Shown here one piece after another: positions 2,551-49,469 of a stretch of 64,000 bases of DNA; positions within the stretch are counted from its first letter, which is position 1; the number at the start of each line of letters is the position of its first letter. The notes under the pieces were generated by a model. It saw only the letters and a list, made by a program, of their open reading frames with translations, searched no databases and was not told where the DNA came from. The DNA is taken from the NCBI RefSeq assembly GCF_003473485.1, contig NC_053047.1, positions 14,100,001 to 14,164,000 on the forward strand, given 5' to 3'. The DNA is from Medicago truncatula. Its lineage: Eukaryota; Streptophyta; Magnoliopsida; Fabales; Fabaceae. A program made the translations under genes and the position numbers.

Positions 2551-3287
2551 TGATTATGCAGTGAACATAACAGAAACTCAGCAAAACCAAGGTAATGAAT
2601 CTCATTCAGAAATTTTGTAATCCACATTATACATTGAATAATGCATTGTGTCACTATTGTTAGTCATAGCTTTGCTCTAGAAAATTGTAATATTATGAGC
2701 TTACAGTGATTTTTGATAAAACTAATTCAAGTAACTTATAATTTATCATCTTTTATCTATCCGATGTGAGACTTGAGTTTTTCCCAATACACCCCGTCAC
2801 TCCAACACTCATTTTGGGCTTAGTGCGTGGATAGATAAGTGACCCTTGAATTCGACAAGCTCTAATACCATCTTGTAATGGAAATCATCGTTGGTTCTAA
2901 TACAACCACACAAAACTGACTTATGAGGTGATGATTGCCCCACTGATAAACAAATGTTTAGACCATATTGGTTATAATACCAATGTAATATTACTTGAAA
3001 AACTAACTATTAATTAAATATACATTTCTTTATGTCATTTCATATTTATTAACTACTTCAACCACTAATTTTATCAAATACTACAATTCTATCAGCTAAC
3101 TTATCTACTATCAACTATAAATTAACTTATAAGTCATCCGCTATAAACTAACTTATCAATTATCCGCTATTTTTTACTAACCAGAGCCACTGTGTCCAAG
3201 CGCAATTGTTTGTTTTGTGGATGTATATGTATATGTAACTAAAGTACATAGATGTATTTTATTAGGAATAAGAAGAAAATAAGAGAG
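2551..3287. other. UGT upstream region with transposon scraps
   Basis: About 2750-2960 resembles LTR/TRIM-type DNA ('gatgtgagacttgag', 'caatacaccccgtcac', then 'ctctaataccatcttgtaa'). About 2990-3189 ends in ACTAACCAGAGCC, the complement of the PIF/Harbinger-type terminus GGCTCTGTTTGGT seen at 53074, so it is probably the right half of such an element. It ends about 100 bp before the UGT start codon and must form part of the upstream region. No clear TATA box was identified. Confidence 0.4.
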
Positions 3288-5307
3288 ATGGAAAAGGAGA
3301 GGAAAAACCATGTAGCTCACTGTCTGATCTTACCTTATCCAGCACAAGGACATATGAATCCTATGATTCAATTCTCAAAGCGTTTGATAGAGAAAGGAGT
3401 AAAGGTTACATTGATAACTGTTTATTCATATTGGAAGACTATCAAAAACAAAAATCTTTCTTCAAATATTGAAGTTGAGAGCATCTCAGATGGCTACGAT
3501 GACGGAGGGTATGAATCGGCAAAGAGCTTTGACGTTTACATACAGACCTTCTGGAGAGTTGGATCACAAACTCTATGTGAGCTTCTTCATAAGCTTTCTA
3601 GCTCAAAAACCCCACCAAATTGCGTTATCTTTGATGCATTTATGCCTTGGGCTCTTGATGTTGCCAAGAATTTTGGGCTACTTGGTGTTCCATTTTTCAC
3701 TCAATCTTGTTCTGTTAATAGCATATACTTTCATACTCATCAGAAGTTGATTGAATTGCCAATTTCACAATCTGAGTATTTGTTACCTGGATTGCCAAAA
3801 CTTGCTCAAGGGGATTTGCCTTCTTTCTTGTATAAATATGGATCCTATCCAATTATATTTGACGTAGTTGTGAATCAATTTTCCAACATTGGTAAAGCAG
3901 ATTGGATTCTTGCAAACACATTCTATGAACTCGAACCAGAGGTATGTCGCTTAAATAAAATAACTGAAATGTCATTCTATACTTTAATATGTTCAGTTTT
4001 GCTTATCTATTGGAATGTAATTTTGGCAAGGTTTTATTCTGCGATAAGATCTTTAATATTGCGAAGAGTTGCTACTAACATGGCTTCAAATGTAATTGTA
4101 CAGCAGCAACCAACAGAAATATAGTATTAGATGATTGATTAGTGAGTTAATTACAACTCCCTTTGTTAGTGGTTGTTAATAAATAGTTATAAGTTAATCC
4201 TCCATAAGTTCAACTTCCTTAGGTATATATTTTTTTATGGTTGAGAAAAGTTATCCACTTACTATGAAGCATGGACACGATACGACGTGTCGATATGTAT
4301 CGAGGACCATACGGTTTGAAATTTCAAGTATCCGTGCTTCACAGATTACAGGCTTCACAAGTTCTTTATATAGAGTATCATATATTTCTTTTCATAAACT
4401 TTCTCAATCAATTGAATATGTTTCTTTTATACGAAGCGTCATAAGTATCAGCACACTATCTTTCTGGGGAATTTGGTTTGGAACAATGACACTCTTTGAT
4501 TTCTAACCACCGCGGACGGTTTTTAATTTCTTGGTAGTCTTCTATTTTTATTGATTATGAATATAATCTTAAATGAATTTGATTTAGGTGGTGGATTGGT
4601 TGAGTAAGATTTGGCCATTAAAGACAATCGGACCATCAGTGCCATCTTCGCATTTGGATAAAAGAATCAAAGATGACAAAGAATATGGTGTTAGCGTTTC
4701 AGATCCAAATACAGAATCTAGCATCAAATGGCTGAACGAGAAACCAAAACGGTCTGTTGTGTACGTCTCATTTGGGAGCAATGCTCGTCTTAGTGAAGAG
4801 CAAATAGAAGAACTAGCTTTGGGATTAAACGATAGTGAAAAATATTTCTTATGGGTTGTTAGAGAATCTGAACAAGTTAAGCTTCCAAAAGGGTTTGAAG
4901 AAACATCGAAGAATGGTTTAATAGTGACATGGTGTCCACAATTAGAAGTGTTAACACATGAAGCTGTGGCATGTTTTGTGACACACTGTGGTTGGAACTC
5001 GACGTTGGAAGCTTTGAGCATTGGTGTACCATTGATTGCAATGCCGCTTTGGACCGATCAAGCTACGAATGCAAAGTTTATTGCTGATGTGTGGAAAATG
5101 GGAGTTAGAGCTGTTGCTGATGAGAAAGAGATTGTTAGAAGTGAAACAATTAAGAATTGTATAAAGGAAATAATTGAGACTGAAAAAGGAAATGAAATTA
5201 AGAAAAATGCTTTGAAATGGAAGAATTTGGCTAAGAGTTCTGTTGATGAGGGTGGAAGATCTGATAAGAATATAGAAGAATTTGTGGCTGCTTTGACTCA
5301 ATATTGA
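3288..5307 (+). CDS. UDP-glycosyltransferase, UGT74 type (copy 1)
   Basis: Two exons, 3288-3941 and 4588-5307, joined in phase 0 at GAG|GTATGT...TTTAG|GTG, giving 457 aa. The start is the ATG at 3288 rather than the in-frame ATG at 3252, because it aligns with the starts of the other two UGTs and puts the catalytic histidine at residue 22 in all three. Visible: N-terminal sugar-acceptor fold beginning LPYPAQGHMNPM, His22, activating Asp116 (CVIFDAF), the LEPE|VVDW junction, and a 44-residue PSPG donor box at W333-Q376 containing HCGWNS and ending in Gln, which in this family favours UDP-glucose. UGT74 enzymes are cytosolic and add glucose to carboxylic acids or other small aglycones (auxin, salicylate, triterpene acids). 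The acceptor here cannot be read from sequence. Convergent with the UGT at 5815-7997. No lesions seen. Confidence 0.93.
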
Positions 5308-5814: not shown

Positions 5815-7997
5815 CTAGAACTTCTTCCTTCTGAGCATCAATTCATTCACAAACTCAACAATATTCTTATCAGAACTTCCACCCTCATCAACTGATTTCT
5901 TCGACACATTCTTCCATTTGATAGCATTATTTTTCAATTCATTTCCCTTTTCTGTCTCCATTATTTCCCTTATACAATCTTCAATACTTTCTCTTCTAAC
6001 CACCCCTTTCTCATCACCAACACCTTTAACAGCAATTTTCCATACATCAACAATAAACTTTGCATTTGTAATTTGATCAGTCCAAATTGGCATCGCAATC
6101 ATCGGAACTCCTAAACTCAAAGCTTCCAATGTTGAATTCCAACCACAATGTGTTACAAAACATCCAACAGCTTCATGTGCAAACACTTCTAGTTGTTGAC
6201 ACCATGTCACTATCAAACCTTTCTCTAATGTTTCCGAAAATCCCTTCGGAATTTTACTTTTTTCAGATTCTCTAACAACCCATATAAAAAATCTGCCACA
6301 GTTTTTCAAACCATAAGCTATTTCCTCAGTTTGGTCTTCACTAAGACTTGACCTGCTTCCGAACGATACATACACAACTGAACCTTTTGGTTTATCATCT
6401 AACCATTTGATGCAAGATTCAGAATTTGGATTAAAGATGTTAATACCATAGTCATTGTCATCTTGGATCCTTCTGTCTAAAAACATGGATGGAACACATG
6501 GTCCTATTGTCTTCAATGACCAAATCTTCTTAAGCCAATCTACAACCTATAAATCAAATCTCATTCACATTTCAATCATCAATATCTAAACAAATACTAA
6601 TAAAAACATTCAACTAAAATTAAGGGCATTTTTTTATAAATGAAAATACTATGTTATCAAAATTTAGAGTTTGACATCAAATATTTTTATGTATCGGGTA
6701 CGGCGATTGGTGCCTCCTTTAATCGCAATTTTAGATGATATCAAAAATTACAGTGTTTTAAAAGCCAGATCGAAAAGGATGGCTCAACTGGCTAAACTGT
6801 GAATCGGAACTGTATGCTTTGATTATTTTAGCATATCAATTCTGGTTTCGCTCCGGTTTAAAGTCATTATATAATGACTTGGTGGTCTAGCCGAATTGAT
6901 GTTCAGTTCGATTTTTAAAACATTGTAAAATTGCGACACATCTGCAATGTATAATCTTGTATAACCAAATGGTTTGACACTATATATTGATTAATGCACT
7001 TAGATTAATACAAGAGTTTAATCCCAGATTATAACCATCTTTCAACAAAAAAAAATTATGTTTCCCATGAGTTTACTCTATTGGAGGTTATCCTATTTGA
7101 GGCATTGTCGGGTACTAAATTTGGACACTTCTACAACCAGGATTCGAACATTAGTTTGCCAAACTGTAGGAGTCTAACCTCTTCCGCTAGACTCAACCGT
7201 CGTTGGTATTATTTACTCAAGTTTTATTTATGTTGCAATCTGCAAGTGAACTCAAAATTAACATAATCTCTTTCTTCTACAATGATCAGTAAACACAAAA
7301 AAAAAATAAAAAATAATAATTAAACATTGTATGAGTGACATACCTCTGGCTCCAATTCATAAAAAGTATTAGCAAGAACCCAATCAACTTGATCAATCAT
7401 TGAAAATTGGTTAGTCAAAATATCAAAGTAACCAGGATGAGTTCCATATTTATACAAAAAAGAAGGCAAATCAGCAGCTTCAAGCTTAGGCAATCCAGGT
7501 AACACAATTTCTTTCTCCAACAAAGGTAAATCCAACCATCCCTTAAAAGCATGAAAATTTATACTATTAACACAACAAGCTTGAGTTAAAAAAACAGCAA
7601 CATATAGTTCAAATTCTTTAGCTACATCAACCACCCAAGGCAAGAAAGCATCATGAATAACACAATCTATAGAGTTGTTTGATTTTGTTAACTTGTGAAG
7701 AAGTTGAGTTAGAGTTTGTGATCCGGTTCGACGAAAGGTTTCTATGTATGTCTCGATGTTTTTTGCGGCGGTTAGACCACCATCGTCGAAACCATCTGAG
7801 ATGGTTTCGAATTCGATGGAAGTGTTTAGGTTTATGGTTTTGAAGGTTTTGGAAGATGATATGGTGTTTACTAGTGTGACTTTTAGTCCTTTTTGGAGTA
7901 AACGTTTTGAGAATTGAAGCATTGGGTTTATGTGACCTTGTGTTGGATATGGAATGATTAAACAGTGAGGTATTTGGTTTTTTATTTCTTTCTCCAT
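5815..7997 (-). CDS. UDP-glycosyltransferase, UGT74 type (copy 2)
   Basis: Exon 1 is 7997-7344 and exon 2 is 6546-5815, joined in phase 0 at GAG|GTATGT...TATAG|GTT, giving 461 aa. His22 lies in PYPTQGHINPM, Asp116 in CVIHDAF, and the 44-residue PSPG box spans W333-Q376 with HCGWNS and terminal Gln. The box reads WCQQ where most members have WCPQ or WCSQ. The protein aligns without gaps to copy 1 over the first 218 residues, so these are recent paralogues. The intron (797 bp) has SINE-like text around 7040-7200 ('aggattcgaac'), not resolved further. A 180-bp MITE-like insert lies 80-260 bp upstream of the start and would be in the promoter. The exact substrate is unknown; the intact frame and splice sites argue for function. 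Confidence 0.92.
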
Positions 7998-10446: not shown

Positions 10447-10860
10447 TTGGTGTACTCATAAAGTTCAAAGATCTTGTTAAAAAAGAGTCAAGATGTCAAA
10501 CTCAGTGTCGCATAACTAATAGTGGTGGTGAATTCAGTTATATATTCTTTAATGAATTTTGGAGCTTGCATGGTTTAAAAGAAAACTTAATCTCCATGTT
10601 TGAATGGAATCTCAAAATTAAAGAAGAAAACAATGATGAACATAGTGAGAAGCATGTTCTCTGGTAGAGATGTACCAAAGAGATTCTAGTATGAAGCTAG
10701 TCTGTGGGCCATTCATATATTGAATAAAAGTCTCTATCTATCTGTGAAAGATACGACATCTGAGGAAAGTTGGAGTGATTTGAAGTTTATTGTCTATTAG
10801 TTTAGAGTCTTAGGTTGAATAGCAGATGCATATGTACATTATGATAATAGAGTTCTCGGG
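10447..10860 (+). mobile_element. Ty1/copia integrase relic
   Basis: The conceptual translation contains FKDLVEKES, then an NSGGEFS motif, then FNEFWSLHGLKENL, the signature around the catalytic Asp-Glu region of copia integrase, followed by a decayed 'EA(S)LWAIHILN' stretch. Several stops and frameshifts. The end of this relic (from about 10760) is duplicated at 16679 onwards. Confidence 0.6.
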
Positions 10861-11669
10861 TTTGAGTTTCGCCAGCGTCCTAGAAGAATGATAACTGTAA
10901 AAGTATATTGTATTTTATCTTTGAGATTTATGGTTTTTTTCTTTGTCATGTACCGAGACACCACTCATGGTTCAATATTTTATAGATCGAACTTAAATCT
11001 TTTTTGTTCATTTAATTCACATATTATTCAAGGAATTAATCGACATAGTCTCGCAGAATATATACTTCACATTAGAAAAATTACATAAACGTATATATAA
11101 TCCAACATTTTTTTTTATGAATAATGACACGAAAATAAACTATATACTCAATTTGATACTTAATAAAACCGTAATGAACATAATAAAAAACCGTAAAGTG
11201 AAACCATTATAAAAATATAACAATAAATAAAATCTCTATTTTGTGATCGTTCATAGAAATCAACCACCAAATACCACAACAACTGTTACGGTATGAACAT
11301 AATAAGTTGTCAAAACTCTCACATCCAATCTACCCACCTCATCACTAGCATCATTTGTCGCTTCTTCACGGCACTCCGTTGATAAAAAGACAACTTTTTA
11401 AACACTTCTAATCAATCAACTTAGTCATCAAACTTAAGATAATTAAACTTGATCTCAATGTTTTACATTGATCAAGGTACAGAAAATTAGAGTGTGATAT
11501 CTTCGGTCATGCACATAAATAAGTACATATATTGTATCAAAATTCAAATAACAGAAAATAAAATGAATAATAATATTTTATTCATTTATATAATTCAATT
11601 ATTACATGTGATACAGGTTTTTCGCCAACTCTATATTATTATTGTAACCTATATAAAGATGAAAGAAAT
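10845..11669. repeat. Segmental duplication, left copy (pairs with 17285-18134)
   Basis: From 'agttctcgggtttgag' to the 3' flank of the secreted-peptide gene, this is nearly identical to 17290-18134. Open frames inside (10888-11088 and its twin at 17328-17561) are conserved only because the DNA is recently duplicated, and are not taken as genes. The left copy lacks about 500 bp of copia DNA and a short 'aagaaaaaagtatatctc' stretch present in the right copy. Confidence 0.75.
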
Positions 11670-11855
11670 TTAGGGTACTAAAGAAGGGGGGCAACATTGC
11701 TTGTTAAAAGCGCATAGTATGTAGCAAGAAGGCACAGGTGCGTAGTCATCAACACTTACTCCTTGTCGTGTGGCATATGTGTTTCCCACAAGGCTCAAAG
11801 CAATAGCAACAAAAAAGACAACAAACATCAATGCCAATTTTAAAGAACCTTCCAT
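11670..11855 (-). CDS. Secreted four-cysteine peptide, copy 1
   Basis: Single exon, 61 aa. A hydrophobic N-terminal signal peptide (residues about 5-26, LALMFVVFFVAIALSLVG) is followed by a probable cleavage near Ala28 (TYA|TRQ). The predicted mature part is about 33 aa, acidic at first (VDDYAPVP), then four cysteines C44, C48, C54, C55 in a CX3CX5CC pattern and a Pro-rich end. A TATA-like element TATAAATA lies on the minus strand at 11933-11926, about 70 bp upstream. I do not recognise the family. The cysteine spacing is not the NCR pattern (CX5C...CX4C) and there is no intron, so I do not call it NCR. It differs from copy 2 at one residue (Leu7 against Met7). A secreted signalling, defence or nodule peptide are all possible; function is unknown. 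Confidence 0.7.
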   Translation of the reverse strand: MEGSLKLALMFVVFFVAIALSLVGNTYATRQGVSVDDYAPVPSCYILCAFNKQCCPPSLVP

Positions 11856-11925
11856 TTCAGCTAAACAATTTATTTTTCAAACAAAGAACAAACTCTGCAT
11901 ATAATGTGTTGAAACAAAAAGGGAT

Positions 11926-11933
11926 TATTTATA
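11926..11933 (-). promoter_or_regulatory. TATA box of secreted-peptide copy 1
   Basis: TATAAATA on the minus strand about 70 bp upstream of the start codon. The same element lies at the same distance in copy 2 (18397-18390) and copy 3 (20178-20171), within a 5' flank conserved in all three. Confidence 0.6.
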
Positions 11934-12183
11934 CACAAATGTTGATCATTATCCTAAAAATAAGCATACGTGGACAATGTTGACCATCATATTAAACTAC
12001 AAATATATTATTAATAAATAAATAGCTATATATATTGAATTTATTATAAGTCAAAAGATGATATTAAATGAAATTTTTTTTTTTTTTTTTTTTTTTAGGA
12101 TGAAGTCCATTTTAGGTTAGAAATTTAAAACACTCTAGAAAGAGTTGACTGGACTAGTCAATAAGGTTAACAGTGAACTAGAA

Positions 12184-12210
12184 TATATATATATATATAT
12201 ATATATATAT
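12184..12210. repeat. (AT)n microsatellite
   Basis: A pure AT dinucleotide run that borders the left end of the inverted-repeat element at 12211. The right end of that element is bordered by CT and AT runs. Confidence 0.9.
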
Positions 12211-13862
12211 GGGTGGGGATATTTTGACTCCAAGAGTAAGTGTAATATCTTACTCCAAATTTTGACCTTTAATTTTAATATTGGTTAATGACTTAGATTA
12301 ATTGATATGATATGCTTTAATTTCATTTTCTATTGTAGTTAACACTTATCACTACAAAATAAAAAAACAATAAATGTCTTTTAATTGCATGATTTTTTTC
12401 TTCTTCCATTGTTTTTTTTTGTTTCACGCAAAAATATTTTTTTAGGGTTAAATTAAAATCCTTTCCTTGAAATAAAAATTCAACATGATTAATGCATTTG
12501 TAGGTAAGTGTTCTTACATTTGTACATGTTGTCTTTATTATTTAATTTAAATTAATGATTAAAATAACTAATTTTACTTATGTTCAAATGCAGGTTTATG
12601 ACCATGCTTGGATCCACAACATGGTGATTTACAAAGCATTTGAGTGGCATAATGTGTGCCCAAATATACCCTCTTTACGATGTTGGAATTTTTGCGAATT
12701 TGTTTTTGAATTTTTAGCCCTTGTTATGTTATGTTATGTTATGTTATGTTGGATTCACGTGTTTTTTTTCTTCTTTATGTTATGTTGAATTCTTGAGCTC
12801 TTTCTCAAATAACATCATCCCCTATGTATGTAAGTGACAACAAAAATTAATTACGATGGAGATGATTATTTTAATTTGTCGTTATGTATATAAGAAAATA
12901 CACAAATTTATTTATTTTTTTATGCAATTATTGTAAATGAATTAGATATAAGAAAAGACTAGGGTTACTTCCTCTATCGTCTTTTTTTTCGTGACAGATT
13001 AGTACAAAAATGTGTATTTACGAAAAAACATAAGAAAAGATCAGGACTATAATGAAGAAATAAAAAAAAAAAAGTCGTATAAAAAATAGTAACGGGATAA
13101 CGAATAAATATGGAATTTTTTTAGCGTTAAAAAAGTAAAGGGAGAAGAAAAAAGAAGAAAAAAATTCTTTTAGCGTAAAAAAATATATGCAAATATTTTT
13201 TTCTTATGCAATTTTTTTGAAGGAATAGAATGAGTGAATCTTAAAAATTTTATTTCAAAGAAAGGATTTTAATTTAAGACTCAAAAAATATTTTAGCGTG
13301 AAACAAAAAAAAACAATGGAAGAAGAAGAAAAATCATGCAATGAAAAGGGATGAGAAACAGTAATATTATACTCAACAACAAAATGTTCAGGTGTAGAAA
13401 TAGAATCAACATGATTTGCAATAGCAAACCCTCTAGCAAATCTAAAAACACCAGTTCCACCAACAATAGGCATTTCTCTATTTTGTTCAGAAATAGGATT
13501 CCTTCCCAACATACAGGGCGGATGGTAGTACAAGGGAGGGGTAGCCCTTGCTACCCCAAAAAAAAATATTTTTCTTAGTAAGTAGGTATATTTTTATATT
13601 TAGCTACCCCTAATAATATATATTTAGCTACCTCAAGTTTAATTTTAGATGAAATAATTTTTTTATCACTACGAAATAACAAAACAATAAATGTCTTTTA
13701 ATACTACAATAGAAAATTCCTTCAAAAAAAATACTACAATAGAAAATTGAATTAAAGCCTATCATATCAATTAACCTAAACCATTAACCAATATTAGAAT
13801 TAAAGGTCAAGATTTGGAGTAAGATGTTACACTTACTCTTGGAGTCAAAATATCCCCACCCT
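12211..13862. mobile_element. Long terminal-inverted-repeat element carrying a gene fragment
   Basis: The left arm (12211-12490) opens GGGTGGGGATATTTTGACTC and runs through 'aagagtaagtgtaa', 'ttggttaatgact', 'tgcatgatttttttcttctt', 'gtttcacgc' to 'aaattaaaatcctttc'. All of this reappears inverted at the right, split into 13245-13345 and 13690-13862. The right arm is interrupted at about 13346-13690 by DNA that includes a dirigent gene fragment. (AT)n or (CT)n runs flank both ends, so the target duplication cannot be read. The structure is like a Pack-MULE or a foldback element. No transposase was seen. Confidence 0.7.
13350..13512 (-). pseudogene. Captured C-terminal fragment of a dirigent protein gene
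   Basis: The minus-strand frame reads LGRNPISEQNREMPIVGGTG, then VFRFARGFAIA, and ends with VVEYNITVSH. These are the hallmark C-terminal motifs of dirigent proteins, which steer phenoxy-radical coupling in lignan and lignin synthesis in the apoplast. Only about 54 codons are present against some 190 in a whole protein, and there is no signal peptide, upstream half or promoter. The fragment lies inside the right arm of the inverted-repeat element, so it looks like a transposon-captured piece rather than a gene. Confidence 0.82.
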
Positions 13863-13888
13863 CTCTCTCTCTCTATATATATATATAA

Positions 13889-14419
13889 GCTTAAATGCTC
13901 TTTTGGTCCCTTAACTATTTAATTGGTATCGTTTTGGTCCCTTAACTAAAAAAAAGATAGTTTGAGTATCTTAAGTTTTTTTTTAGTCTCATTTTGGTCC
14001 CTTCTGTTAGGTTTCCGTTAGGGTTTAAAAAGAAAGTTAACTCCTGCACACATGTCACCTTGTCATTGGGTCTGAGTTTTTTTTTTTAGAAAAAAAAATA
14101 TTTTTTAAAAAAAATCCCAAAGCCAATGTCATAGTGACACGTGTCACTTTGTCATTGGTTCTGGGAATTTTTAACAAAAAAATAAAATATATATGTTAAA
14201 TTTATTTATTTTTTTTTGTAAAAAAAAAAATCTTAGAGCCAATGACAACGTGATATGTGTCCACACTTAACGTTTTTTATTAAACCTAACGGAAACCTAA
14301 CAGAAGGGACCAAAACGAGACTAAAAAAAACTTAAAGTACTCAAACAATCTTTGTTTTAGTGAAGGATCCAAAGCGATACCAATTAAATACATAAGGGAC
14401 CAAAACGGCATTTAAGCCT
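13889..14419. mobile_element. Non-autonomous TIR element, Mutator-like
   Basis: The left arm (GCTTAAATGCTCTTTTGGTC) and right arm (GACCAAAACGGCATTTAAGC) are inverted repeats that extend inwards about 140 bp, including 'ctaacggaaacctaacag' against 'ctgttaggtttccgttag'. Both ends abut (TA)n runs, a common target of this class. There are no coding motifs. Confidence 0.7.
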
Positions 14420-15215
14420 ATATATATATATATACATATGCGCACGTGCTCTACTCTTCTTTAATTATAGATATAGATATAGGTATTTTGTACTTTCATA
14501 TTATAATAAACTAGACCTATATTCTTATATGAGACGAATACTATAAAAAATATAATATAAATTTTTTATATTTTTGAATAACATCAACAATGTGGCATTC
14601 TTATAGGAAAATTTGTTTAGTGGTATAATCGGAAGTGAAAAAGGCAACTTAAAACCATATATTCTTTTTGTGCTCCATAGACATATATAATGATGTCATT
14701 ACTATTTCACTCGATGATCAGCAAAGAAGCTTGCATGATAAAGAATGAAGAACAAAATTTGATAAAGAGAAAGATGATGAACCAACTTTGAATATGCCCA
14801 ACTATAGAAAGAGTTACAGGCGTGGAATAGGACTTATTGGTGCTAGAAGACGTGAAGAGTAAAACAGGCAAGTGAACTGGCTGAATGCTACAAACGTGAC
14901 AAACAAGGGTATTATTAGAATGAATGTCCCAATTGGGAAATTGAAAATGCAAATTTTACTGAGTTTGGTGATACAGAAGAAATGTTTCTTCCAGCTCAAG
15001 AAAAGGTGCATACAACAATAAGAAAATAAGTATAGTTCCTTAAGTAAAGATGTAGCTATCACATTATAGGAACTAAAGGTTGGATATTTAATTATCACGA
15101 TGCATTTTTAGAATCAATCGAAGGTGGAGATGATTCCAAGATTCCTGTGATGAGAAGTCTTAAGCAGTTGTACTTAAACAAAAGGGAAGTCTTTAGTTAG
15201 AATCCTAGAGAATAA
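14420..15215. other. Intergenic DNA with possible Helitron and copia scraps
   Basis: About 14480-14580 ('ctttcatattataa', then 'agtataaaaaatataatataaat'-like text) matches the start of the repeat at 18441 and 20530. On the minus strand about 14950-14800 a frame reads HSNNTLVCHVCSIQPVHLPV, faintly like a copia GAG-pre-integrase zinc motif, but the match is weak. No gene is called. Confidence 0.3.
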
Positions 15216-16534
15216 GGGCCTGTTTGGATCAGTTTTTGTTTTTAGTTTTTAAAATATGTTTTATAAATCTGTTTTAGAAAACAGTTTTAAAGAAGAGAGA
15301 AAAAGAAAATTTGTTTGGTGACGTAATTTTTCAAAACTGTTTTAGAGATGAGAAAACAAAAAATTCATTTGGCATTCTAATTTTCAAAAACAGTTTTCGA
15401 GATGTAAAAATAAAAAAATCTACTTGCAATCTAATTTTTTAAAAACAAATTTATAATTTTAAATACTTTTTTTGAGAAAATAATTTTAAATACTTAGGTT
15501 TATATATATTGAATTTTTTTGTTAGATTTGTCACGATTAAAACTTTTAAAATATCAAATTTTATAAATTTTGTTAATAGCTATTTAAAGATATTAAATGT
15601 CAAAATTGTGCATTCACATATGTCAAACCCTCAATTGGATCACTCATTGTGGAACGAATGAAGTATGATAAAAAAGTGACAATATGTGATGAATCGTTAG
15701 AAGTTGAGTATCATAGGATGAACTTGCGATTTGGCCAACATGCATGAAGATATACAATATATAAGTAAGTCAATAAATTTTCAGAATTTGGAGTCACATG
15801 TTCAGATGTTCTCAAATGGAACCCTAAAAAGGTAGACTTAGTAATAAGATACAAATAAAAAATAAATAAAAAAATCAACCCCATAATCTACTGCTATGCA
15901 AATAAAAACACACAATACATTTTTATGGGAGAAAGATGAAAATGATGAAAAACAAATTGTCTATATCTAGAAAAAAAAACATTTTTTAATTTACAAATGA
16001 GTCATGATCCATTTTGATTGGCTCATGAAAAACAAATGTGTCATAATCCTTTTTTTATTGGTTGATATAAAATAAATGTTTCAATTCATTTTGATTGGAT
16101 GATAAGAAAACATTAAATGAGATGAGAAATTTTTATTAATTAATTTGATGAAGAAAAAGAACAAGAATATTTCTTTCAAATTTTTCAAAAAAACAAAGAG
16201 AATATTCTTTCAAAACCTTACACATGCGCGTGCCACACTACCATTTTTTATTTGTTTAGATTTTTATTAATCAAAGTTGCCATTAATAACGATTTTGCCA
16301 TTAATGAAAACTAACCCTTTTCTCCGGGTTTTCAGTTTTCGTTTGGATACTCAAAAAAGTGAAAAGTAAAATGCAAAACATGGATTATCAGTTTTGATTT
16401 TTTGATTTTAAAAACACCAATTTTAAAAATGATTTTTAGAAACAGTATTATAAAACAATTATTCAAACAAGTTTTTAATTCTCTAATTTTTAAAAACAGA
16501 AAAACAGTTTTTAAAAAGGCAATCAAACAGGCCC
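15216..16534. mobile_element. PIF/Harbinger-type non-autonomous element
   Basis: Begins GGGCCTGTTTGGATC and ends AATCAAACAGGCCC, with TAA directly outside on both sides (15213-15215 and 16535-16537), the classic Tourist/Harbinger signature. Long A/T-rich arms of 'gttttagaaaacagttttaa' type are inverted between the ends. At 1.3 kb it is larger than a usual Tourist MITE. No transposase frame is readable. Confidence 0.75.
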
Positions 16535-17284
16535 TAAGTCTTTAGGTAGAGAGTCCTAGAGCATAGAAGTCTCTTGAAATTTTTCTAGACTAATTAGAAG
16601 TCTCTTGCATTTGTGCTTAAGCATAGAGAAATCTCTTGGATGTGTCCTTGATCATTTTGTAAATAGGTGTGATTATAGTGAAACATACGACATCTGAGGA
16701 AACTTGGAGTGATTTGAAGTCTATTGTCTATTAATTTAGAGTCTTTGGTTGAATAGCAGATGCATATGTACCTCATGATAATAGAAAGAAGCTTGATGCA
16801 AAAGGTGTCAAATGTGTTCATTTTGGGATTATAAATTAATATAAAGGTTACAAGGTTCTTGATCGCTCGCAAAATAAAGTAATAATCGACATAGATGTCA
16901 TTTTTGAAGAATTAAAATGATGAAATTGAGATGAAAATCAAAAGGGACTACTAGTGCAAGTTTACAAAAGGGATGTGAAGAACAACAATGATGAAGAACG
17001 AGATTGTGAGATTCACACTAACATCTGTGATTCAAACAGTGAGGAAACTTATAAGAATGCTAAGTTTGGATCTAGCAATGAATAATCTGTTAACGACCCT
17101 TATTTTCTTGTTGCAAGAGACGTCTTATTGAACATGTAATTTCACTCATATACCTAATCCAAATGAGATATACAAATCTTTTATAGAAAAATGCCAAGGA
17201 TGTGAATTCGAGTATGAGTTTGGGTGTGGAACAACGTTTTTTAGTTATGTTCTGAAGAATGGGTATGTAGCAATACTAGAACTC
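16535..17284 (+). mobile_element. Ty1/copia pol relic (integrase to linker)
   Basis: From 16680 the DNA repeats the tail of the relic at 10760. It then continues with a frame readable as KKLDAKGVKCVHFG, YKGYKVLDRSQNKVIIDIDVI and FEELK, matching the region between integrase and reverse transcriptase of copia polyproteins. Stops and indels interrupt it. The left copy at 10845 lacks most of this segment, which marks the difference between the two duplicates. Confidence 0.6.
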
Positions 17285-18134
17285 TTAGAGAGTTCTCGGG
17301 TTTGAGTTTCGCCAGCGTCCTAGAAGAATGACAACTGTAAAAATATATTGTATTTTATCTTTGAGATTTAAGAATTTTTTCTTTGTTATGTACCGAGACA
17401 CCACTCATGGTTCAATATTTTATAGATCGAACTTAAATCTTTTTTGTTCATTTAATTCGCATATTATTCAAGGAATTAATCTACATAGTCTTGCGGAATA
17501 TATTTCACATTGGAAAAATTACATAAACGTATATATAATCCAACATTTTTTTTATGAATAATGACACGAAAATAAACTATATATTCAATTTGATACTTAA
17601 GAAAAAAGTATATCTCTAACTCACTTATTTTCCTAATGTTTAATTAAATAAAAAACCGTAAAGTGAAACCATTATAAAAATATAACAATAAATAAAATCT
17701 CTATTTTGTGATCGTCCATAGAAATCAACCACCAAATACCACCACAACTGTTACGGCAGGAACATAATAAGTTGTCAAAACTCTAACATCCAATCTACCC
17801 ACCTCATCACTATCATCATTTGTCGCTTCTTCACGGCACTCCGTTGGTAAAAAGACAACTTTTTGAACACTTCTAATCAATCAACTTAGTCATCAAACTT
17901 AGGATAATTAAACTTGATCTCATTGTTTTACAATGATCAAGGTACAGAAAATTGGAGTGTGATATCTTCGGTCATGCACATAAATAAGTACATATATTGT
18001 ATCAAAATTCAAATAACAAAAAATAAAATGAATAATAATATTTTATTCATTCATATAATTCAATTATTACATGTGAGACAGGTTTTTCGCCAACTCTATA
18101 TTATTATTGTAACCTATATAAAGATGAAAGAAAT
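17285..18134. repeat. Segmental duplication, right copy (pairs with 10845-11669)
   Basis: Near-identical to the left copy from 'agttctcgggtttgag' onwards, including the 3' flank of the secreted-peptide gene. No separate gene is called. Confidence 0.75.
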
Positions 18135-18320
18135 TTAGGGTACTAAAGAAGGGGGGCAACATTGCTTGTTAAAAGCGCATAATATGTAGCAAGAAGGCAC
18201 AGGTGCGTAGTCATCAACACTTACTCCTTGTCGTGTGGCATATGTGTTTCCCACAAGGCTCAACGCAATAGCAACAAAAAAGACAACAAACATCAATGCC
18301 ATTTTTAAAGAACCTTCCAT
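18135..18320 (-). CDS. Secreted four-cysteine peptide, copy 2
   Basis: 61 aa, single exon. It is identical to copy 1 except Met7 in place of Leu7, and has the same signal peptide, CX3CX5CC mature region (C44, C48, C54, C55) and TATAAATA box (18397-18390). The identity reaches well into both flanks, so the duplication is young. Its upstream flank is cut short at about 18437, where the sequence jumps to the repeat beginning 'tatatatttcctttc'. Copies 1 and 3 keep at least 250 bp more of the ancestral upstream DNA. Whether this shorter promoter is still active is unknown. Confidence 0.7.
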   Translation of the reverse strand: MEGSLKMALMFVVFFVAIALSLVGNTYATRQGVSVDDYAPVPSCYILCAFNKQCCPPSLVP

Positions 18321-18440
18321 TTCAGCTAAACAATTTATTTTTCAAACAAAGAACAAACTCTGCATATAATGTGTTGAAACAAAAAGGATTATTTATACAG
18401 AAATGTTGATCCTTATCCTAAAAATAAGCATACGTGGTAT

Positions 18441-19075
18441 ATATATTTCCTTTCTTTTATTAAGACAATTTTGATTAAAATTATTGTTATATATTTTTTT
18501 TCCTTTCATATTATAACAAATTATACTTATCTTTTAAAATGAGACCAATAGTATAAAAAATATAATATAAATTCTATTCTTCGAATCTTTCGCGTTTTCC
18601 TATTGTCATCATTACTGCGCCTCATTCTTGTCGATCGGTTTCCCTCAAATTTTCTACTTTGCCACTAAGTCCAGAAATCAACCTTTCAATCCCAACACGC
18701 AGCAGTTACTAATCAAGGGAAATGTAGAGTTTGTAGCTTCACTTCTTCCCCAATCTGTTCTTTAAAAAGTGTCCTTGTTCACTCCATTTCTCAACCTACC
18801 TTCCATTGCTAAATTTGCATTTTTGTCGTTTTATGAAAGAAAGAACAATATATTGCAATGATGGAACGTCTCCCAAATAATGCTTTCCTCATCAATTTCA
18901 ATAAGGTCGCAGCATCTAGTATGAGGATCTTTTTTAAATCCAGCGCAACTTATGCTCGTCATCGAAAACTTTCAATCAACAACGAAGTACTTAAGGCTTT
19001 GCCGGGAAGATGTCTATTTTATCTTTCCGATCATCAACCTTGTACGGAGAAACGCGCTTTCATGTAGCAACTTTC
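18441..19075. repeat. Repeat B, first copy (pairs with 20530-21165)
   Basis: About 635 bp almost identical to 20530-21165. It contains an open frame (18858-19067, starting MMERLPNNAFLINFNK) that is broken by a stop in the second copy (GGAAGA against GGATGA). It reads like a captured piece of a gene's 5' end (C-rich leader, ATG, basic N-terminus), but I do not recognise it. The second copy ends in a Helitron 3' terminus, so this repeat is probably Helitron-borne. Confidence 0.6.
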
Positions 19076-19076
19076 T

Positions 19077-19660
19077 TTCAGTGGGCATGCAACGTACACC
19101 GTAGCACTAGCATCTCAATTTTTCCAGCAAATGGTTCCTGACTTGAAGGAAATCAAACGAATTCTGCATGAAGCAACTATTCAAGGATCTAACGGGGATA
19201 AATATTTCATGATGATCATGTTGAATGTGCAAGCTAGAGGCAGGACTTCGACATATGAGTTTTTCTCTGTCTTCAAAGATCTCTTCGAGCGTAGGAAACT
19301 CGCCAATTGTAAGAGGGCCATCATGAACATCGACTGTTGCTTTCGGTTGAGGGCCCTTCATCCTTGCTTGGAATATAGATTCATGTCTACTTCATACAAG
19401 ACCTATAAAGGAGACGGGAGGAAGCCCAATACCTTTTCGCTACCTCCAGGCTCTGATGATTATTACTCCATGACAGACATTTTCCTCTCATGCCGATTCT
19501 ATGCCGAGATTCTTTGGTTCCTCGTACATTTCCGCTTCTCCGAGGGATTTAAGCTTTGGTCGATTATGCTGACGCGGAGCCATATTTTTTTATTTTTTTA
19601 TGTATTGAAATGTGTTTGTTCTTTAACTAGTTATTATTGGATTTATAAATTGCGGTAACA
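19077..19660 (+). pseudogene. Unrecognised gene fragment, faintly PPR-like
   Basis: GC content and codon texture are higher than the surroundings. The frame 19131-19658 opens MVPDLKEIKRILHEA and includes FSVFKDLFERRKLANCKRA. The last part loosely recalls a pentatricopeptide unit (VFDEMPE..NCKRTV), but the match is weak and the C-terminal half reads as noise. An overlapping minus-strand frame (19361-19107) is also open. It occurs in only one of the two repeat-B contexts. Treated as a captured or decayed fragment of unknown origin. Confidence 0.25.
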
Positions 19661-19915
19661 GTATGAGTTATGGTTTAATTGCTATTACATCATGTTTATT
19701 CTGTATCAAAACACTGATATTGAAACCCAGGTTGCGGTTGCAGACCTTAATAAAAAAAAATTGGTCACGATCCATTTTATTGTATAGAAATGCAAACAAG
19801 AAAATAATTGGAATAGTAATATTTTATTTATTCATATCATTCAATTATTACATCTGAGACTGAGTTTTCTCCAACTCAATAGTATTATTGTAAACTAAAT
19901 AAAGATGAAGTAAAT

Positions 19916-20101
19916 TTAGGGTACTCTAGAAGGGGGGCAACATTGCTTGTTAAAAGCGCATAATATGTAGCAAGAAGGCACATGTGCATGATCATCAACA
20001 CGAACTCCGGGCCGTGTGGCATATGCATTTTCCATTAGGCTCATCGCAACAACGACCAAAAAGAAAACAAACTTCATTGTCATTTTCATAGAACCTTCCA
20101 T
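19916..20101 (-). CDS. Secreted four-cysteine peptide, copy 3
   Basis: 61 aa, single exon, the most diverged member. The signal peptide (MEGSMKMTMKFVFFLVVVAM) differs at many sites from copies 1 and 2, and the pro-region reads TRPGVRVDDHAHVP. The C-terminal stretch SCYILCAFNKQCCPPS is unchanged in all three, with C44, C48, C54 and C55. That contrast between a free signal peptide and a fixed cysteine core is what selection on the mature peptide would give. The TATAAATA box is at 20178-20171. The upstream flank matches copy 1 out to about 20473 (against 12183). Confidence 0.72.
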   Translation of the reverse strand: MEGSMKMTMKFVFFLVVVAMSLMENAYATRPGVRVDDHAHVPSCYILCAFNKQCCPPSRVP

Positions 20102-20529
20102 TTCAGCTAAACAATTTATATTTCAAACAAAACACAAACACTGCATACAGTGTATTGAAACACAAGAGATTATTTATACACTGATATCAATCCTTATCCT
20201 AAAAATAAGCATACGTGGACAATGTTGACCATCATATTAAACTATAGAAATATTATTAATAATTTTTATTATCAATAAATAAATAGCTATGTATATATAT
20301 TGACTTTATTAAAAGTTAAAAGAAGTTATTAATCGATGAAAAATTAGAAATGAAAACAATTTTAATATTACAAAATTATTTTACTATGTATGATGTCGTT
20401 TTTAGGTGTGAAATCTAAAACACTATAGAAAGGGAAGACTGGTCTAGCCAATCAGGTTGACGGTGAACCAGAATAATTTTTTTGTGCCTCGTAGTCTGTG
20501 TGTGTGTGTGTGCATATATATATATATAT

Positions 20530-21343
20530 ATATTTCCTTTCTTTTATTAAGACAATTTTGATTAAAATTATTGTTATATATATTTTTTTCCTTTCATATT
20601 ATAACAAATTATACTTATCTTTTAAAATGAGACCAATAGTATAAAAAATATAATATAAATTCTATTCTTCGAATCTTTCGCGTTTTCCTATTGTCATCAT
20701 TACTGCGCCTCATTCTTGTCGATCGGTTTCCCTCGAATTTTCTACTTTGCCACTAAGTCCAGAAATCAACCTTTCAATCCCAACACGCAGCAGTTACTAA
20801 TCAAGGGAAATGTAGAGTTTGTAGCTTCACTTCTTCCCCAATCTGTTCTTTAAAAAGTGTCCTTGTTCACTCCATTTCTCAACCTACCTTCCATTGCTAA
20901 ATTTTCATTTTTGTCGTTTTATGAAAGAAAGAACAATATATTGCAATGATGGAACGTCTCCCAAATAATGCTTTCCTCATCAATTTCAATAAGGTCGCAG
21001 CATCTAGTATGAGGAACTTTTTTAAATCCAGCGCAACTTATGCTCGTCATCGAAAACTTTCAATCAACAACGAAGTACTTAAGGCTTTGCCGGGATGATG
21101 TCTATTTTATCTTTCCGATCATCAACCTTGTACGGAGAAACGCGCTTTCATGTAGCAACTTTTCCAAACAAAATATAATTGTAATATATTATTTTATTTG
21201 TAGGTTCAAGAAAAATATATAAATTACATGCAAACTTGAAACAAAACAAATATTTTCACAAGAAACATAGTCAAGTCTATACACACATTAGCGCAGTAGA
21301 AAAAACGGACAGACGGGCACTCCCGTACCCGTCTGGACGCTAG
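20530..21343 (+). mobile_element. Helitron-like segment with repeat B, second copy
   Basis: Repeat B (20530-21165) is followed by 180 bp ending in a Helitron-type 3' terminus: stem CAGACGGGCAC / GTACCCGTCTG (21310-21335, one mismatch, 4-nt loop), then CTAG at 21340-21343. The text 'ttagcgca' precedes the hairpin here and in the Helitron at 8389-9069, so the two share a terminal family. The 5' end was not found. Confidence 0.6.
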
Positions 21344-27663: not shown

Positions 27664-29528
27664 TTAGCATAATGTCAATTCATTCACAAACTCAACAATA
27701 TTCTTATGAGAACTTCCATCCTCACCAACAGAAATCCTAGCCAAATTCTTCCATTTCATAGCATTCTTCTTCATTGCATCTCCCTTTTCAATCTCCATTA
27801 TTTCCTTTAAGCAATCCATAATTGTTTCCCTTCTAACTACACCTTTCTCATCAGCATGAGCTTTGACTCCAATTTTCCAAACATCAACAATAAACTTTGC
27901 ATTTGTGATTTGATCTGTCCAAAGTGGCATTGCAATCACCAGAACTCCAACACTCAAAGCTTCCAATGTCGAGTTCCAACCACAATGTGTTACAAAACAA
28001 CCAACAGCTTCATGTGTTAACACTTGTAGTTGTGAACACCAATTGACAATTAAACCTTTCTCTATCGATGACTCCAACATTTCCTTTGGAACTTTACTCT
28101 TTTCTGAATCTCTAACAACCCATAGGAAATACATTCCACAATCTCTTAATCCATAAGCCATTTCCTTTGTTTGGTCTTCACTAAGACCAGCCAAGCTCCC
28201 AAAAGAAACATACACAACTGAGTCTTTTGGTTTATTATCCAGCCATTTGATGCAAGCTTCTGAATTTGGACCAAAAGTGCTTATCCCATAGTCATTGTCA
28301 TCTTCAAGTCTTTTGTCTAAAAACATAGATGGAATGCATGGTCCTATTGTTTTTAATCGCCATTTCTTCGCCATCCAATCCACAACCTAAATAAAATTTT
28401 CATATTAGATTTCAATCATCAAATATCAAAATTACTTGTAAAGGTTTATAAAAAAAAAAAAAAAACGCAATTTTATCGACCACGTTAGCATGTGTTCTGA
28501 TTTCGCGGTGATTGCAAAATTTGTCCGCAATTCTCTATAATATTAAGGATCATGACCAAAGTTATAAATTAAAATGTCTAACTATTTAAAAGTTATTGCG
28601 ATTTAAAACATTGCTTCTGAATATTATCGCAACCGCTTATATAATATCTACAAAAGCCTAATAAATTTGTAGATATTATATAAGTTTAGTATTACAGACT
28701 TTTGATCGAAGGTGTATCTGGTGTCTGACATATATTGATGTCCGACACTCATAAAACATGTGATTACATTCGATCTATTAATTTTATGATATTATTACCG
28801 ATATTAAATTGTAAATGATTGTGTCATATCCGTGTTTGTGTCATTACTTCATAGAATATAAGTAAATCACTTACCTCTGGCTCAAGTTCATAAAACGTGT
28901 TGACAAGAACCCAATCAACTTGATCAATCTTGGAAAATTGGTTTGTAAGAATATCAAAGTAACCAGGATAGGTTCCATATTGATACAAGAAAGAAGGCAA
29001 ATCAGCATCTTGAAGCGTTGGCAATCCAGGTAACACAATTTCACTCTTCGAAATCGGCAACTCAATCCATTTCATAAAAGCATGAAAATTTATGGTATTA
29101 ACAGAACAAGCTTGAGTTAAGAAAACAGCAACAGGGATTTCAAAACTCTTAGAGACATCAAAAGTCCAATTTAAGAAAGCATCATAGACAACACAATCAA
29201 CAGGGTTGTTTGAACTTTGAAGTTTATGAAGAAGCTGAGAAAGTGATTTTGGTCCAACTTTCCAGAAAGTGTCTTTGTAAGATTCCATGTTTTCTGCTGA
29301 TGACATTCCTCCATTGTCATAACCATCTGAAATGCTTTCAGTTTCAATTGAATTGAGATCAATGTTGTTGTTGATTTTGTTCCAAATGGAAATGGTGTTC
29401 ACTAGTGTTATTTTTACTCCTTTTTGGGATAAACGTTTCGAGAATTGAAGCATAGGGTTTATGTGACCTTGTAATGGATATGGAAACACTAAGATGTGTG
29501 GTGCATGTTTTTTGCTTTTATTCTCCAT
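27664..29528 (-). CDS. UDP-glycosyltransferase, UGT74 type (copy 3)
   Basis: Exon 1 is 29528-28875 and exon 2 is 28386-27664, joined in phase 0 at GAG|GTAAGT...TTTAG|GTT, giving 458 aa. Exon 1 is 218 codons, as in the other two copies, with His22 in PYPLQGHINPM and Asp116 in CVVYDAF. The PSPG box is W334-Q377 with HCGWNS and terminal Gln. One oddity: residue 367 is Leu (SVGVLVIAMP) where the other two copies have the usual Pro (GVP), a change of a strongly conserved PSPG position that could affect donor binding. A TATATAAA lies on the minus strand at 29571-29564, close to the start. It stands alone, 20 kb from the pair at the left. Presumed cytosolic; acceptor unknown. Confidence 0.9.
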
Positions 29529-34304: not shown

Positions 34305-34759
34305 ATGGATAATGAAGAAACAAAACCAATAAGATTTGGAATCCTTGGTTGTGCAGAAATAACTCGCAAAGTTTCAAGAGCCATAAACCTTTCACCAAAA
34401 GCAACTCTCTACGCAATTGGGAGCCGTTCATTAAAAAAAGCAACAAAATTTGCAGCTTCAAACAACTTCCCTTCTCATGCCAAAGTATACGGCTCATACA
34501 ACGCCGTATTAGACGATCCAGACGTCGACGTTGTCTACATTCCGCTTCCGACTAGCCTGCACCTTCATTGGGCAGTTCTTGCTGCTCAGAAGAAGAAACA
34601 CTTGTTGCTTCATAAGCCAGTTGCTTTAAATGTTGGTGAACTTGATAAAATTCTTCTTGTGAATCTAATGGATTGCAATATATGAATCTACTCTGTCCTA
34701 GGATTGAAAAAATGTTTCAGTTTATATCTGATCCTAATCTTTTTGGTTCCCTTCAATTG
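34305..34759 (+). pseudogene. Truncated Gfo/Idh/MocA oxidoreductase, copy C
   Basis: The first 115 or so codons match exon 1 of the intact copies (ETKPIRFGILGCAEITRKVS; NAD(P)-binding Rossmann loop), starting at ATG 34305 with a conserved leader. After LDKIL a 4-bp loss shifts the frame and a further loss of about 14 bp follows. The shifted frame stops at 34685. The old exon end and donor (CAATTG|GTATGA at 34759) are still there, but no exon 2 follows: the DNA runs into the NCR-bearing duplication. Residue 103 of the EKP motif is His instead of Glu or Asp, a further loss. Not functional. Confidence 0.9.
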
Positions 34760-37389: not shown

Positions 37390-38145
37390 TATATCAAGGG
37401 TGATGCTTTGAGCATCAAAATATGTCAGGAGGAGTATCATAGAGGACTACAAGACTGCAATAATGAGTTGAGGGCGCGTTTGACCCTTAACAAAAGGATA
37501 CAAACCATATTTTGCACGTCATCTAAGCATCAATATTGGAAAGCTATGGAAAACATCGGCAGGATGGAAAATGGTGACTCTAGGCAAAGACTATTATGAC
37601 TTTCACTTTGACTCGACGGATGACCTTAGAAAAATATGGGCAGCACGCACGGTGAGCCTCGAGCCTGGTTTATTACGGTTTTCACAATGGGCGAAAGACT
37701 TCAAATATCTTGCTCAGAAACAGACTCATGTTTCACTTTGGATTCGATTGGTGGAGGTACCACAGGAATATTGGCGAGAGAGAATTTTGAAGGAAATAGC
37801 AAGTGCGATAAGTACAGCGATTGACATTGATGGACCGACGCGAAATCGTACCTTTGGACATTATGCAAGAATTTTAGTGGACATTGATCTTTCAAAGTTG
37901 AGGTCCAATATGAGCGGAGACCGTTGTTTTGTCATCACTGATCTCTATTGGGCACAATGTCTCCGCTTGTCGTTGGTTAGATCCGCAACCACCAAAGGGC
38001 AAGTATGAACGAGGAAAACAATTTGTTGTAGCCGAGGCAGGCCCTCATAAGCCTACTCGGCAGAGCAGCAACAACAATGATGTGGGTGCTTCAACGTCGG
38101 CTGACAAGTGCCAGAAAGTAGTATTTCAAATGATTATTTACGGCA
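37390..38145 (+). pseudogene. DUF4283-type LINE ORF1 relic
   Basis: The frame 37571-38008 reads VTLGKDYYDFHFDSTDDLRK, then SLEPGLLRFSQWAKDF, SLWIRLVEVPQEYW and ASAISTAIDIDGPTRNRTFG. These are the motifs of the DUF4283 domain, found in plant LINE ORF1 (gag-like, RNA-binding) and in many legume relics. The N-terminal part lies in another frame (37408-37599), and the stretch after YARILVDIDLSK is shifted, so at least two frameshifts are present. Confidence 0.75.
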
Positions 38146-44662: not shown

Positions 44663-46061
44663 ATGGCTTTTGAAGAAACAAAACCAATAAGATTTGGAAT
44701 ACTTGGTTGTGCAGAAATAGCTAGAAAAGTTTCAAGAGCTATAAACCTTTCACCAAATGCAACTCTCTACGCAATTGGAAGTCGTTCACTAGAAAAAGCA
44801 ACAAAATTTGCAGCTTCAAACAACTTCCCTTCTCATGCCAAAGTATATGGCTCATACGACGCGGTTTTAGACGATCCAGACGTCGACGTTGTCTACATTC
44901 CGCTTCCGACTAGCTTGCACCTTCACTGGGCAGTTCTTGCTGCTCAAAAGAAGAAACACTTGTTGCTTGATAAACCAGTTGCTTTAAATGTTGGAGAACT
45001 TGATAAGATTTTGGAAGCTTGTGAATCTAATGGACTGCAGTATATGGATGCTACTATGTGGATGCATCATCCTAGGACTGAAAAAATGTTTCAGTTTATA
45101 TCTGATCCTAATCTCTTTGGTTCCCTTCAATTGGTATGATTCATCCATCCCTTCTCACTTTTATATTTTTGCTAAAATTCTTTATTTTTTTTTTTGTCAA
45201 GCAACATAGTGGCTATGAATTCACTTTTATAAATTGAATAAGTGGGTGTCCGGGGTTCCAACCGGCCCGTGCATATATTATGTAATGTCTTTATTAACTG
45301 AGTTAAGCTGACGGAACGTCTTTACCAACTTAGTTAAGTTGACGGACATTTTTGTCTAATTATTGTTTAACTTTGGCTCAATTAAAAAAAAGTACTAATT
45401 GTTTTGTGTTGTTACTTATGCCCAAAATATATAATTATAGGTACATGCTGCATTTACATTCGGGGCAAGTCCACATTTCCTAGCAAACGACATTCGTGTA
45501 AAACCAGATCTTGATGCCCTAGGAGCACTTGGTGATGCTGGTTGGTACTGCATTAGGGCAATCTTATGGGCTGCAAATTACGAATTACCCAAAACAGCAA
45601 AAGTCTTACACAAACCAAAATACAATGAAGCAGGGGTACTTCTGTCATGTGAAGCTTCTTTGACATGGGAAGATAACAAAGTAGCAACTTTCTTTTGTTC
45701 CTTTTTAGCAGACATGTCTATGGATATAACAGCTATAGGGGCAAAAGGGTCATTGCGTGTTCATGATTTTATTATACCTAATCAAGAGAATGAGGCTTTG
45801 TTTAGAATAAGTTCAAATTCTTATTTTGTTGAACTTTCTACTGGTTGGAATCCTAAACCTAGTGAGATTATAGTAAAAAATGATGTTCCACAAGAAGTAC
45901 TTATGGTTAAGGAATTTGCTCATATGGTTGGTGGGATTAAGTATGGGAATTCTAAAGTTGAGAATAAGTGGGCAATTATTAGTAGGAAAACTCAAGTGGT
46001 TATTGATGCTGTGAAAGCTTCAATTGATAATGATCTTGAGCCTGTTTCTATTCAGTATTAA
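44663..46061 (+). CDS. Gfo/Idh/MocA-family oxidoreductase, copy A
   Basis: Exons 44663-45133 and 45441-46061, joined in phase 0 at TTG|GTATGA...TATAG|GTA, 363 aa, the usual length of the plant group typified by Arabidopsis At4g09670. The N-terminal Rossmann fold opens IRFGILGCAEIARKVS (dinucleotide loop at residues 11-18). The EKP motif of this family is DKP at 103-105, with Lys104 as expected. The C-terminal sheet domain includes GDAGWYCIRAIL and CEASLTWEDNKVATFFCSF. The group is related to dihydrodiol dehydrogenase and is expected to be cytosolic and NAD(P)-dependent, but the plant substrate is unknown. Glu103 to Asp is conservative. The 307-bp intron holds a SINE in reverse. A TATATATT at 44571 lies in a promoter conserved with copies B and C. 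Confidence 0.92.
45184..45355 (-). mobile_element. SINE inside the intron of copy A
   Basis: On the minus strand the A box reads AGCTTAACTCAGTTAATAAAG, the B box GGTTGGAACCCCGGA, and a poly-A (poly-T on plus at 45184-45195) follows. The 5' part, 'aacttaacta(a)gttggtaaagac', repeats the A-box region in tandem. The intron of copy B lacks it. Confidence 0.75.
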
Positions 46062-49454: not shown

Positions 49455-49469
49455 TAAAGCCTTCGAAGA

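Follow-up and report, generated by a model that had tools for sequence, protein, structure and literature searches.

A 64-kb stretch of Medicago truncatula DNA (RefSeq assembly GCF_003473485.1, contig NC_053047.1, positions 14,100,001 to 14,164,000; the whole stretch is called the window below) carries three short peptide genes, here named c1, c2 and c3, and raises the question of what kind of family they belong to and which part of the peptide evolution has kept. Sequence comparison leads us to favour, with moderate confidence, the reading that they are a local tandem cluster of a dispersed birth-and-death family of short secreted disulphide peptides.

Three genes in the window and their relatives in the genome

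The open reading frames (ORFs) of c1, c2 and c3 are intact, each with 61 codons plus stop in a single exon, and an intron is not required. Cysteines 44, 48, 54 and 55 give the spacing CX3CX5CC, and a Pro tail is present. ORF positions and translations thus bear out the sequence-only reading of this locus, which had described three 61-residue single-exon genes with a signal peptide, this cysteine pattern and a Pro-rich tail. A hydrophobic stretch of 15 residues lies near residues 9-26 in all four tested proteins of 60-66 residues, with a mean Kyte-Doolittle value of 2.4-3.1, and the -3/-1 rule for signal-peptide cleavage would place the cut in c1 to c3 near residue 28 (T-Y-A|T in c1). The segment from Ser43 to Ser58, the core, was rightly described as unchanged: it is identical in the three proteins, and its 48 bases are the same in c2 and c3, with c1 one silent base off. 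Over their whole length the c1 and c2 proteins are 98% identical (DNA 97.3% over 792 bp), whereas c3 shares 70% and 72% of its residues with c1 and c2 (about 85% of DNA). Judged by these identities, c1 and c2 are young duplicates and c3 is older.

One member after another served as query against the genome of the window (430 Mb, 42 contigs), and the match counts are lower bounds. Matches lay on contigs C1 to C8. At least 19 ORFs were intact, running from ATG to stop with a signal peptide and four or more mature cysteines. The window holds three of them, the locus at C6:10.22 Mb another three, and 13 lie elsewhere (one on C1, two on C2, three on C5, six on C6, one on C7), so that the idea of a family limited to three local copies is not supported. 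This count leaves aside three places matched mainly via the signal peptide (C4:1.05, C4:3.40, C1:37.86) and two where the ATG was not in line (C8:33.16, C6:35.56). The nearest relatives, the d copies at C6:10.219-10.227 Mb, comprise three intact genes and one split by an insertion. Together with the window at C6:14.11 this makes seven window-like copies, six of which keep the open frame, at a DNA difference of about 25% between the two clusters.

Broken copies were of several kinds. An insert of about 1.3 kb interrupts the signal peptide of the copy at C6:10.219-10.221 Mb, and at C6:2.738-2.739 an insertion stands between signal peptide and mature part. The copies at C6:4.350 and C2:37.532 have frameshifts. 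Stops within the frame interrupt those at C5:36.043 and C5:26.554, and at C5:14.62 and C1:17.2 the mature part is gone.

All 19 intact members have a single open frame from ATG to stop. Their signal peptides follow roughly the pattern M-x3-LK-x2-LKFVV-x-L-x-A-I-x3-LVG-x-V-Q-G, and the Pro-rich mature part has 29-44 residues, 61 in one member. Twelve members belong to a 4-Cys type with two spaced cysteines and CC (CX3-6CX5CC in 10 of the 12) and seven to a 6-Cys type, CCX5-6CX4CX4CC; the mature cysteine count is 4 or 6 in 18 of 19, member h having 5. Prokaryote contigs (15 stretches) and viral contigs (37 stretches) also matched a pattern, and no relative among them was confirmed by tblastn.

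Signal peptide, mature part and core

Genome-scale pairwise E-values between clusters were weak: 0.013 at best (10.22-Mb copy to C6:2.73), 0.46-0.93 for the C6:4.35 copy to c1-c3, 1.8 and 4.4 for a C5 copy to c2 and c1, and 2.2 and 4.3 for the C6:2.83 copy to the 10.22-Mb copies. We therefore built a hidden Markov model (HMM) profile from 13 members, with the window and 10.22-Mb copies left out, and searched with it a set of 359 ORFs, each 40 residues or longer, from the window and nine other stretches, a set which includes six of the profile's own members. It matched c2 at 2.8e-10, c1 at 1.3e-9 and c3 at 5.1e-9. For the three 10.22-Mb copies E ranged from 3e-11 to 1.2e-10; two broken copies followed with 1e-6 and 6e-5, and no ORF from outside the family came below 0.73. 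When the profile was divided, the signal-peptide half placed 6 of 6 tested sequences above all 500 of their own shuffles. With the mature half none of the six beat its shuffles, the real score being reached by 107 to 420 of 500. The signal peptide alone thus carries the family match. Six groups (12 sequences, 6-Cys groups excluded) give 15 pairs, and in every one signal-peptide identity exceeded mature identity. A reverse model from the window and 10.22-Mb copies gave mature parts whose real score was reached by 3 (f1), 30 (e), 56 (h) or more than 340 of 500 shuffles. Inside single groups, the signal peptide was 62% alike and the mature part 54% in group f, and 93% and 95% in the 10.22-Mb cluster.

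Apart from the weak pairwise values, several observations weigh against one family held together in this way. The profile is not independent, since its members were collected by a search chain started from a window protein, and secretion was no criterion in the choice of the 359 background ORFs. With the reverse model nine of the 13 signal peptides outscored every shuffle; for the other four, 1-4 of 500 shuffles reached the real score. The relation is reversed inside the window cluster, the mature part being 90% alike and the signal peptide 69%. It is possible that the signal-peptide likeness arose by convergence or is shared with other secreted families. Finally, a net charge of -1 to +5 does not favour a membrane-active antimicrobial in most members.

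The sequence-only reading had taken the core for the constrained part and the signal peptide for the free one. Between c2 and c3 the core differs at 0 of 48 bases and the signal peptide plus pro-region at 25 of 126 (Fisher p = 0.0002); for non-synonymous changes the figures are 0/37 and 17/97 (p = 0.003; rounded counts). The coldness of the c2-c3 core exceeds chance. Equal rarity of silent changes in the core had been named in advance as the sign that selection is not at work, and between c2 and c3 the core indeed lacks silent change too, with 0/11 against 8/29 in the signal peptide plus pro-region (p = 0.08; rounded counts). As the c2-c3 core has no silent changes, local gene conversion explains its identity as well as purifying selection does. 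Between clusters the picture changes. Compared with c2 or c3, the core of d1 has 37.5 non-synonymous sites, of which 8.5 are changed (dN 0.27, dS 0.44); this dN is not lower than that of the signal peptide, 0.20 for c2-d1 and 0.17 for c3-d1. The frame CX3CX5CC-PPS is kept in the C6:10.22-Mb relatives. A fixed core therefore holds within a cluster and not family-wide, and the contrast of constrained core and free signal peptide is not supported.

Selection on the whole gene was estimated from six intact sequences. The fitted omega of the complete coding sequence was 0.46-0.49, and on a grid with kappa at three values the log-likelihood was -555.18 at omega 0.5 and -558.59 at omega 1 (twice the difference 6.8, p 0.009). 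The signal peptide alone gave a best grid omega of 0.6 (1.95, p 0.16) and the mature part alone 0.5 (4.2, p 0.04); the four pairwise whole-gene tests of non-synonymous against synonymous change were all not significant. Weak purifying selection on the family is supported. The earlier view of a constrained peptide family thus survives as omega of about 0.5, with omega = 1 rejected, and lacks support where it singled out the core as the constrained part.

These figures also bear on the picture behind that view, a peptide hormone, in which the C-terminal SCYILCAFNKQCCPPS core would be a ligand released from a precursor and held fixed by its receptor while signal peptide and pro-region drift. It would suit the protein-identical core in c1-c3 and among the three intact 10.22-Mb copies, and a pooling of c1-c3 and d1-d2 chosen by the analyst gave core counts of 0/75 non-synonymous and 2/21 synonymous changes (Fisher p 0.046). 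We consider it unlikely, since recent gene conversion accounts equally for the c2-c3 core with its lack of silent change, and between clusters the core evolves as fast as the remainder. The potentially sulphated DDY, moreover, is gone in c3, for which reason tyrosine sulphation was rejected.

Promoter signature, duplicated DNA and neighbouring genes

The sequence-only reading had held the TATA box and the 5' flank to be kept. The TATA box is, and beyond it the likeness of the flank is limited to c1 and c3 (to 12017 and 20262); the match of c2 stops at 18437, where a repeat starts. All 14 aligned upstream regions have TATAAAT, at a distance of 72-111 nt from the start. For members found later, TATAAA lay upstream at 7 of 9 places in one set and 17 of 18 in another, three places being common to both; its absence at 2/9 and 1/18 places counts against the favoured reading, and the figures come from AT-rich DNA and have no chance control.

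In several members TATAAAT sits within TATAAATAAGTACACA. This 16-mer has 10 exact matches genome-wide, and its reversed control has 3. Eight of the 10 precede family copies (four intact, four broken), one is a family promoter relic and one is unrelated. As seven of the eight family matches were known beforehand, the fair test consists of the three new matches, two of which belong to the family: C2:37.532 is a broken copy, and C3:37.99 (C3:37.993 Mb) is the promoter relic, which has no peptide ORF and matches DNA upstream of a C6:2.83 copy at 86% identity over 235 nt. The third, C5:42.0, is unrelated beyond the 16-mer. The window copies carry TATAAATAATCC or a close variant in place of TATAAATAAGTACACA, so that the signature leaves them out; that the AGTACACA extension is missing from them likewise counts against the favoured reading.

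The peptide genes, their TATA boxes and the surrounding duplications are listed in the table.

Table. Positions in the window of the three peptide genes, promoter elements and duplicated segments.
Feature	Position	Strand	Remarks
Peptide gene c1, with stop codon	11670..11855	minus	signal peptide ~11772-11855 (predicted), mature part 11673-11771, core Ser43-Ser58 11682-11729
Peptide gene c2	18135..18320	minus	signal peptide ~18237-18320 (predicted), core 18147-18194
Peptide gene c3	19916..20101	minus	signal peptide ~20018-20101 (predicted), core 19928-19975
TATA box (TATAAAT) of c1	11927..11933	minus	78 nt before ATG
TATA box of c2	18391..18397	minus	77 nt before ATG
TATA box of c3	20172..20178	minus	77 nt before ATG; second TATAAAT 19 nt before ATG
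AATAAA in c1 3' flank	11577..11582	minus	in block common to c2, c3 and the C6:10.219-Mb stretch; possible poly(A) signal
Duplicated block with c1	11182..11973		97.3% identical to 17647-18437; further duplicated pieces at 10744-11168
Duplicated block with c2	17647..18437
Older duplicated block with c3	19778..20262		84.8% identical to 11530-12017
Repeat copy 1, adjoining c2	18438..19074		99.2% identical to 20525-21162; ends like long terminal repeats (LTRs) not seen; (TA)n at one junction
Repeat copy 2, upstream of c3	20525..21162

The two repeats of 637-638 bp (identity 99.2%) flank c3 on both sides. An LTR element enclosing the gene was considered and rejected, as the repeats lack LTR-like ends; plain segmental duplication fits. 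Between c1 and c2 there are inverted-repeat pairs resembling miniature inverted-repeat transposable elements, 12211-12339 / 13733-13861 (93%) and 13874-13983 / 14323-14432 (88%).

ORFs resembling uridine diphosphate (UDP)-glycosyltransferases, with an HCGWNS box, lie on both sides of the peptide cluster (3252-5307, 5815-7997 and 27664-29528). We take them to be of the UGT74 type; the only such piece scanned in Pfam, 28824-29528, gave a chance match only. Three mutually similar oxidoreductase ORFs follow at 34305-34685, 44663-46061 and 57504-59073. The first, possibly shortened, matched GFO_IDH_MocA (PF01408) in Pfam. A DUF4283 ORF, of a kind found in plant retroelement debris, lies at 37571-38008, part of a resistance-type gene with leucine-rich repeats (R13L1/DRL21) at 49441-49803, and a 90-nt tRNA-Ala call, made by ARAGORN with bacterial settings and possibly spurious, at 50761-50850.

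Known families and possible roles

The description of an unrecognised family, with no clear match to a named one, was upheld by the Pfam and PDB searches. Among 14 proteins scanned none had a Pfam family above the cut-off; DUF6520, Yos1, Pilin_N (twice, best E 0.0089) and DUF6791 were chance matches below theirs. NCBIfam gave no match for the three window proteins, which has little weight for a prokaryote library. No convincing match was found in the PDB, where weak matches (profile E 0.12 to 3.9; single 1.8) fell on signal peptide and pro-region. The core and relative peptide strings were absent from the text of 5.39 million open-access papers; this has little weight, supplements and databases such as MtSSPdb lying outside that search.

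The peptides could also be small protease inhibitors, with an inter-cysteine loop that occupies a protease and loop changes that shift the target. The short inter-cysteine loops, their fast change and the Pro next to CC are suggestive of this. We regard it as improbable, for the Pfam scan of 14 proteins named no family above cut-off, no inhibitor was among the PDB matches, and the inter-cysteine residues differ from cluster to cluster. Still more doubtful is the view that the ORFs are decaying or due to chance, lack a peptide function and were copied together with the DNA around them, as the position in duplicated blocks, the several broken copies and the individually non-significant pairwise tests might suggest: six of seven frames are kept in the two closest clusters despite the DNA difference between them, omega = 1 is disfavoured, and the TATA box is present in 14 of 14 upstream regions.

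Leguminosin group567 and proline-rich group669 are annotation names for secreted legume peptides, and no plant paper was among the matches listed in a literature search on the two. One leguminosin annotation group might hold the window family. Leguminosin group485, annotated in Medicago according to passages of PMC6836625, was rejected as a different kind of protein: in the portion of PMC11646724 concerned, a barley gene so annotated best matches a PELPK1-like protein. The tomato family CRP_6C I, as described in part of PMC10515272, is likewise an unclassified secreted cysteine-rich peptide (CRP) family known from sequence, and its spacing starts C x3 C x5 C; it differs in that CC is absent and that the cysteines number six, with the full spacing C x3 C x5 C x5 C x2 C xn C. 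Other literature leads gave only families that differ from the window family.

A further comparison is with the NCR (nodule-specific cysteine-rich) or Late nodulin family of Medicago, presumably PF07127. NCR peptides have 4 or 6 cysteines with the spacing CX5C ... C X4-9 C. The peptides of the window family are also small and putatively secreted, with many genes and with 4 or 6 cysteines in nearly all members. PF07127 was matched by none of the 14 proteins at E up to 10 (HMMER filters drop most matches above 0.1). The spacing is different, with CX3CX5CC in the window and CC in the other 16 members too, though f1, f2, f3 and g start CX5C. Sections of the SPADA study (PMC3924332) state that signal peptide and cysteine configuration are typically common to the members of a CRP sub-class and that an intron usually sets the signal-peptide exon apart. 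In NCR genes such an intron usually splits signal peptide and mature part, in contrast to the single exon in 19 of 19 members here. The SPADA study also gives 1170 predicted Medicago CRPs, so that some genes of the family may already carry a CRP number.

LEED..PEED peptides, shown in parts of PMC4199706 to be restricted to the Medicago lineage, are likewise short, secreted and arranged as a tandem cluster with a distant copy. They have acidic motifs followed by tryptophan and no cysteine-rich regions, unlike the C..C..CC and Pro of the present family, and the window proteins contain no Trp. By its sequence features the window family lies outside both the NCR and the LEED..PEED definitions. More tentatively, it may be an undescribed single-exon legume peptide family parallel to the NCRs, in which the heritable unit would be TATA promoter plus signal peptide, with the mature cargo, built on 4-Cys and 6-Cys frameworks with CC, rewritten in each cluster.

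In the birth-and-death reading that we favour, the family would have grown by local and distant duplication and lost copies through insertion, frameshift and stop, while signal peptide and TATA box stay alike and the mature part turns into a different sequence in each cluster. The peptide would enter the secretory pathway and be cut near residue 28; small loops would then be closed by two disulphides (three in the 6-Cys branch), and the product would act outside the cell. A mature part that changes fast behind a still recognisable signal peptide, together with the clusters and the many broken copies, is reminiscent of plant peptides of biotic interfaces. By analogy with this evolutionary pattern, the peptides would most likely work at a biotic interface, in defence or symbiosis, as variable secreted products rather than as one fixed hormone. 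Passages of PMC4199706 state that lineage-specific expanded families generally serve stress or pathogen responses.

The locus illustrates that a single tandem cluster can invert the picture, since here a core is fixed locally and the signal peptide is kept genome-wide. The concrete genes, the clusters and, for part of the family, the promoter signature could be used to ask where the peptides act. If they are expressed, at least 19 intact cysteine-peptide genes lacking a Pfam model would be added to a model legume, and expression in nodules or at infection sites would make them a second disulphide-peptide arsenal in Medicago.

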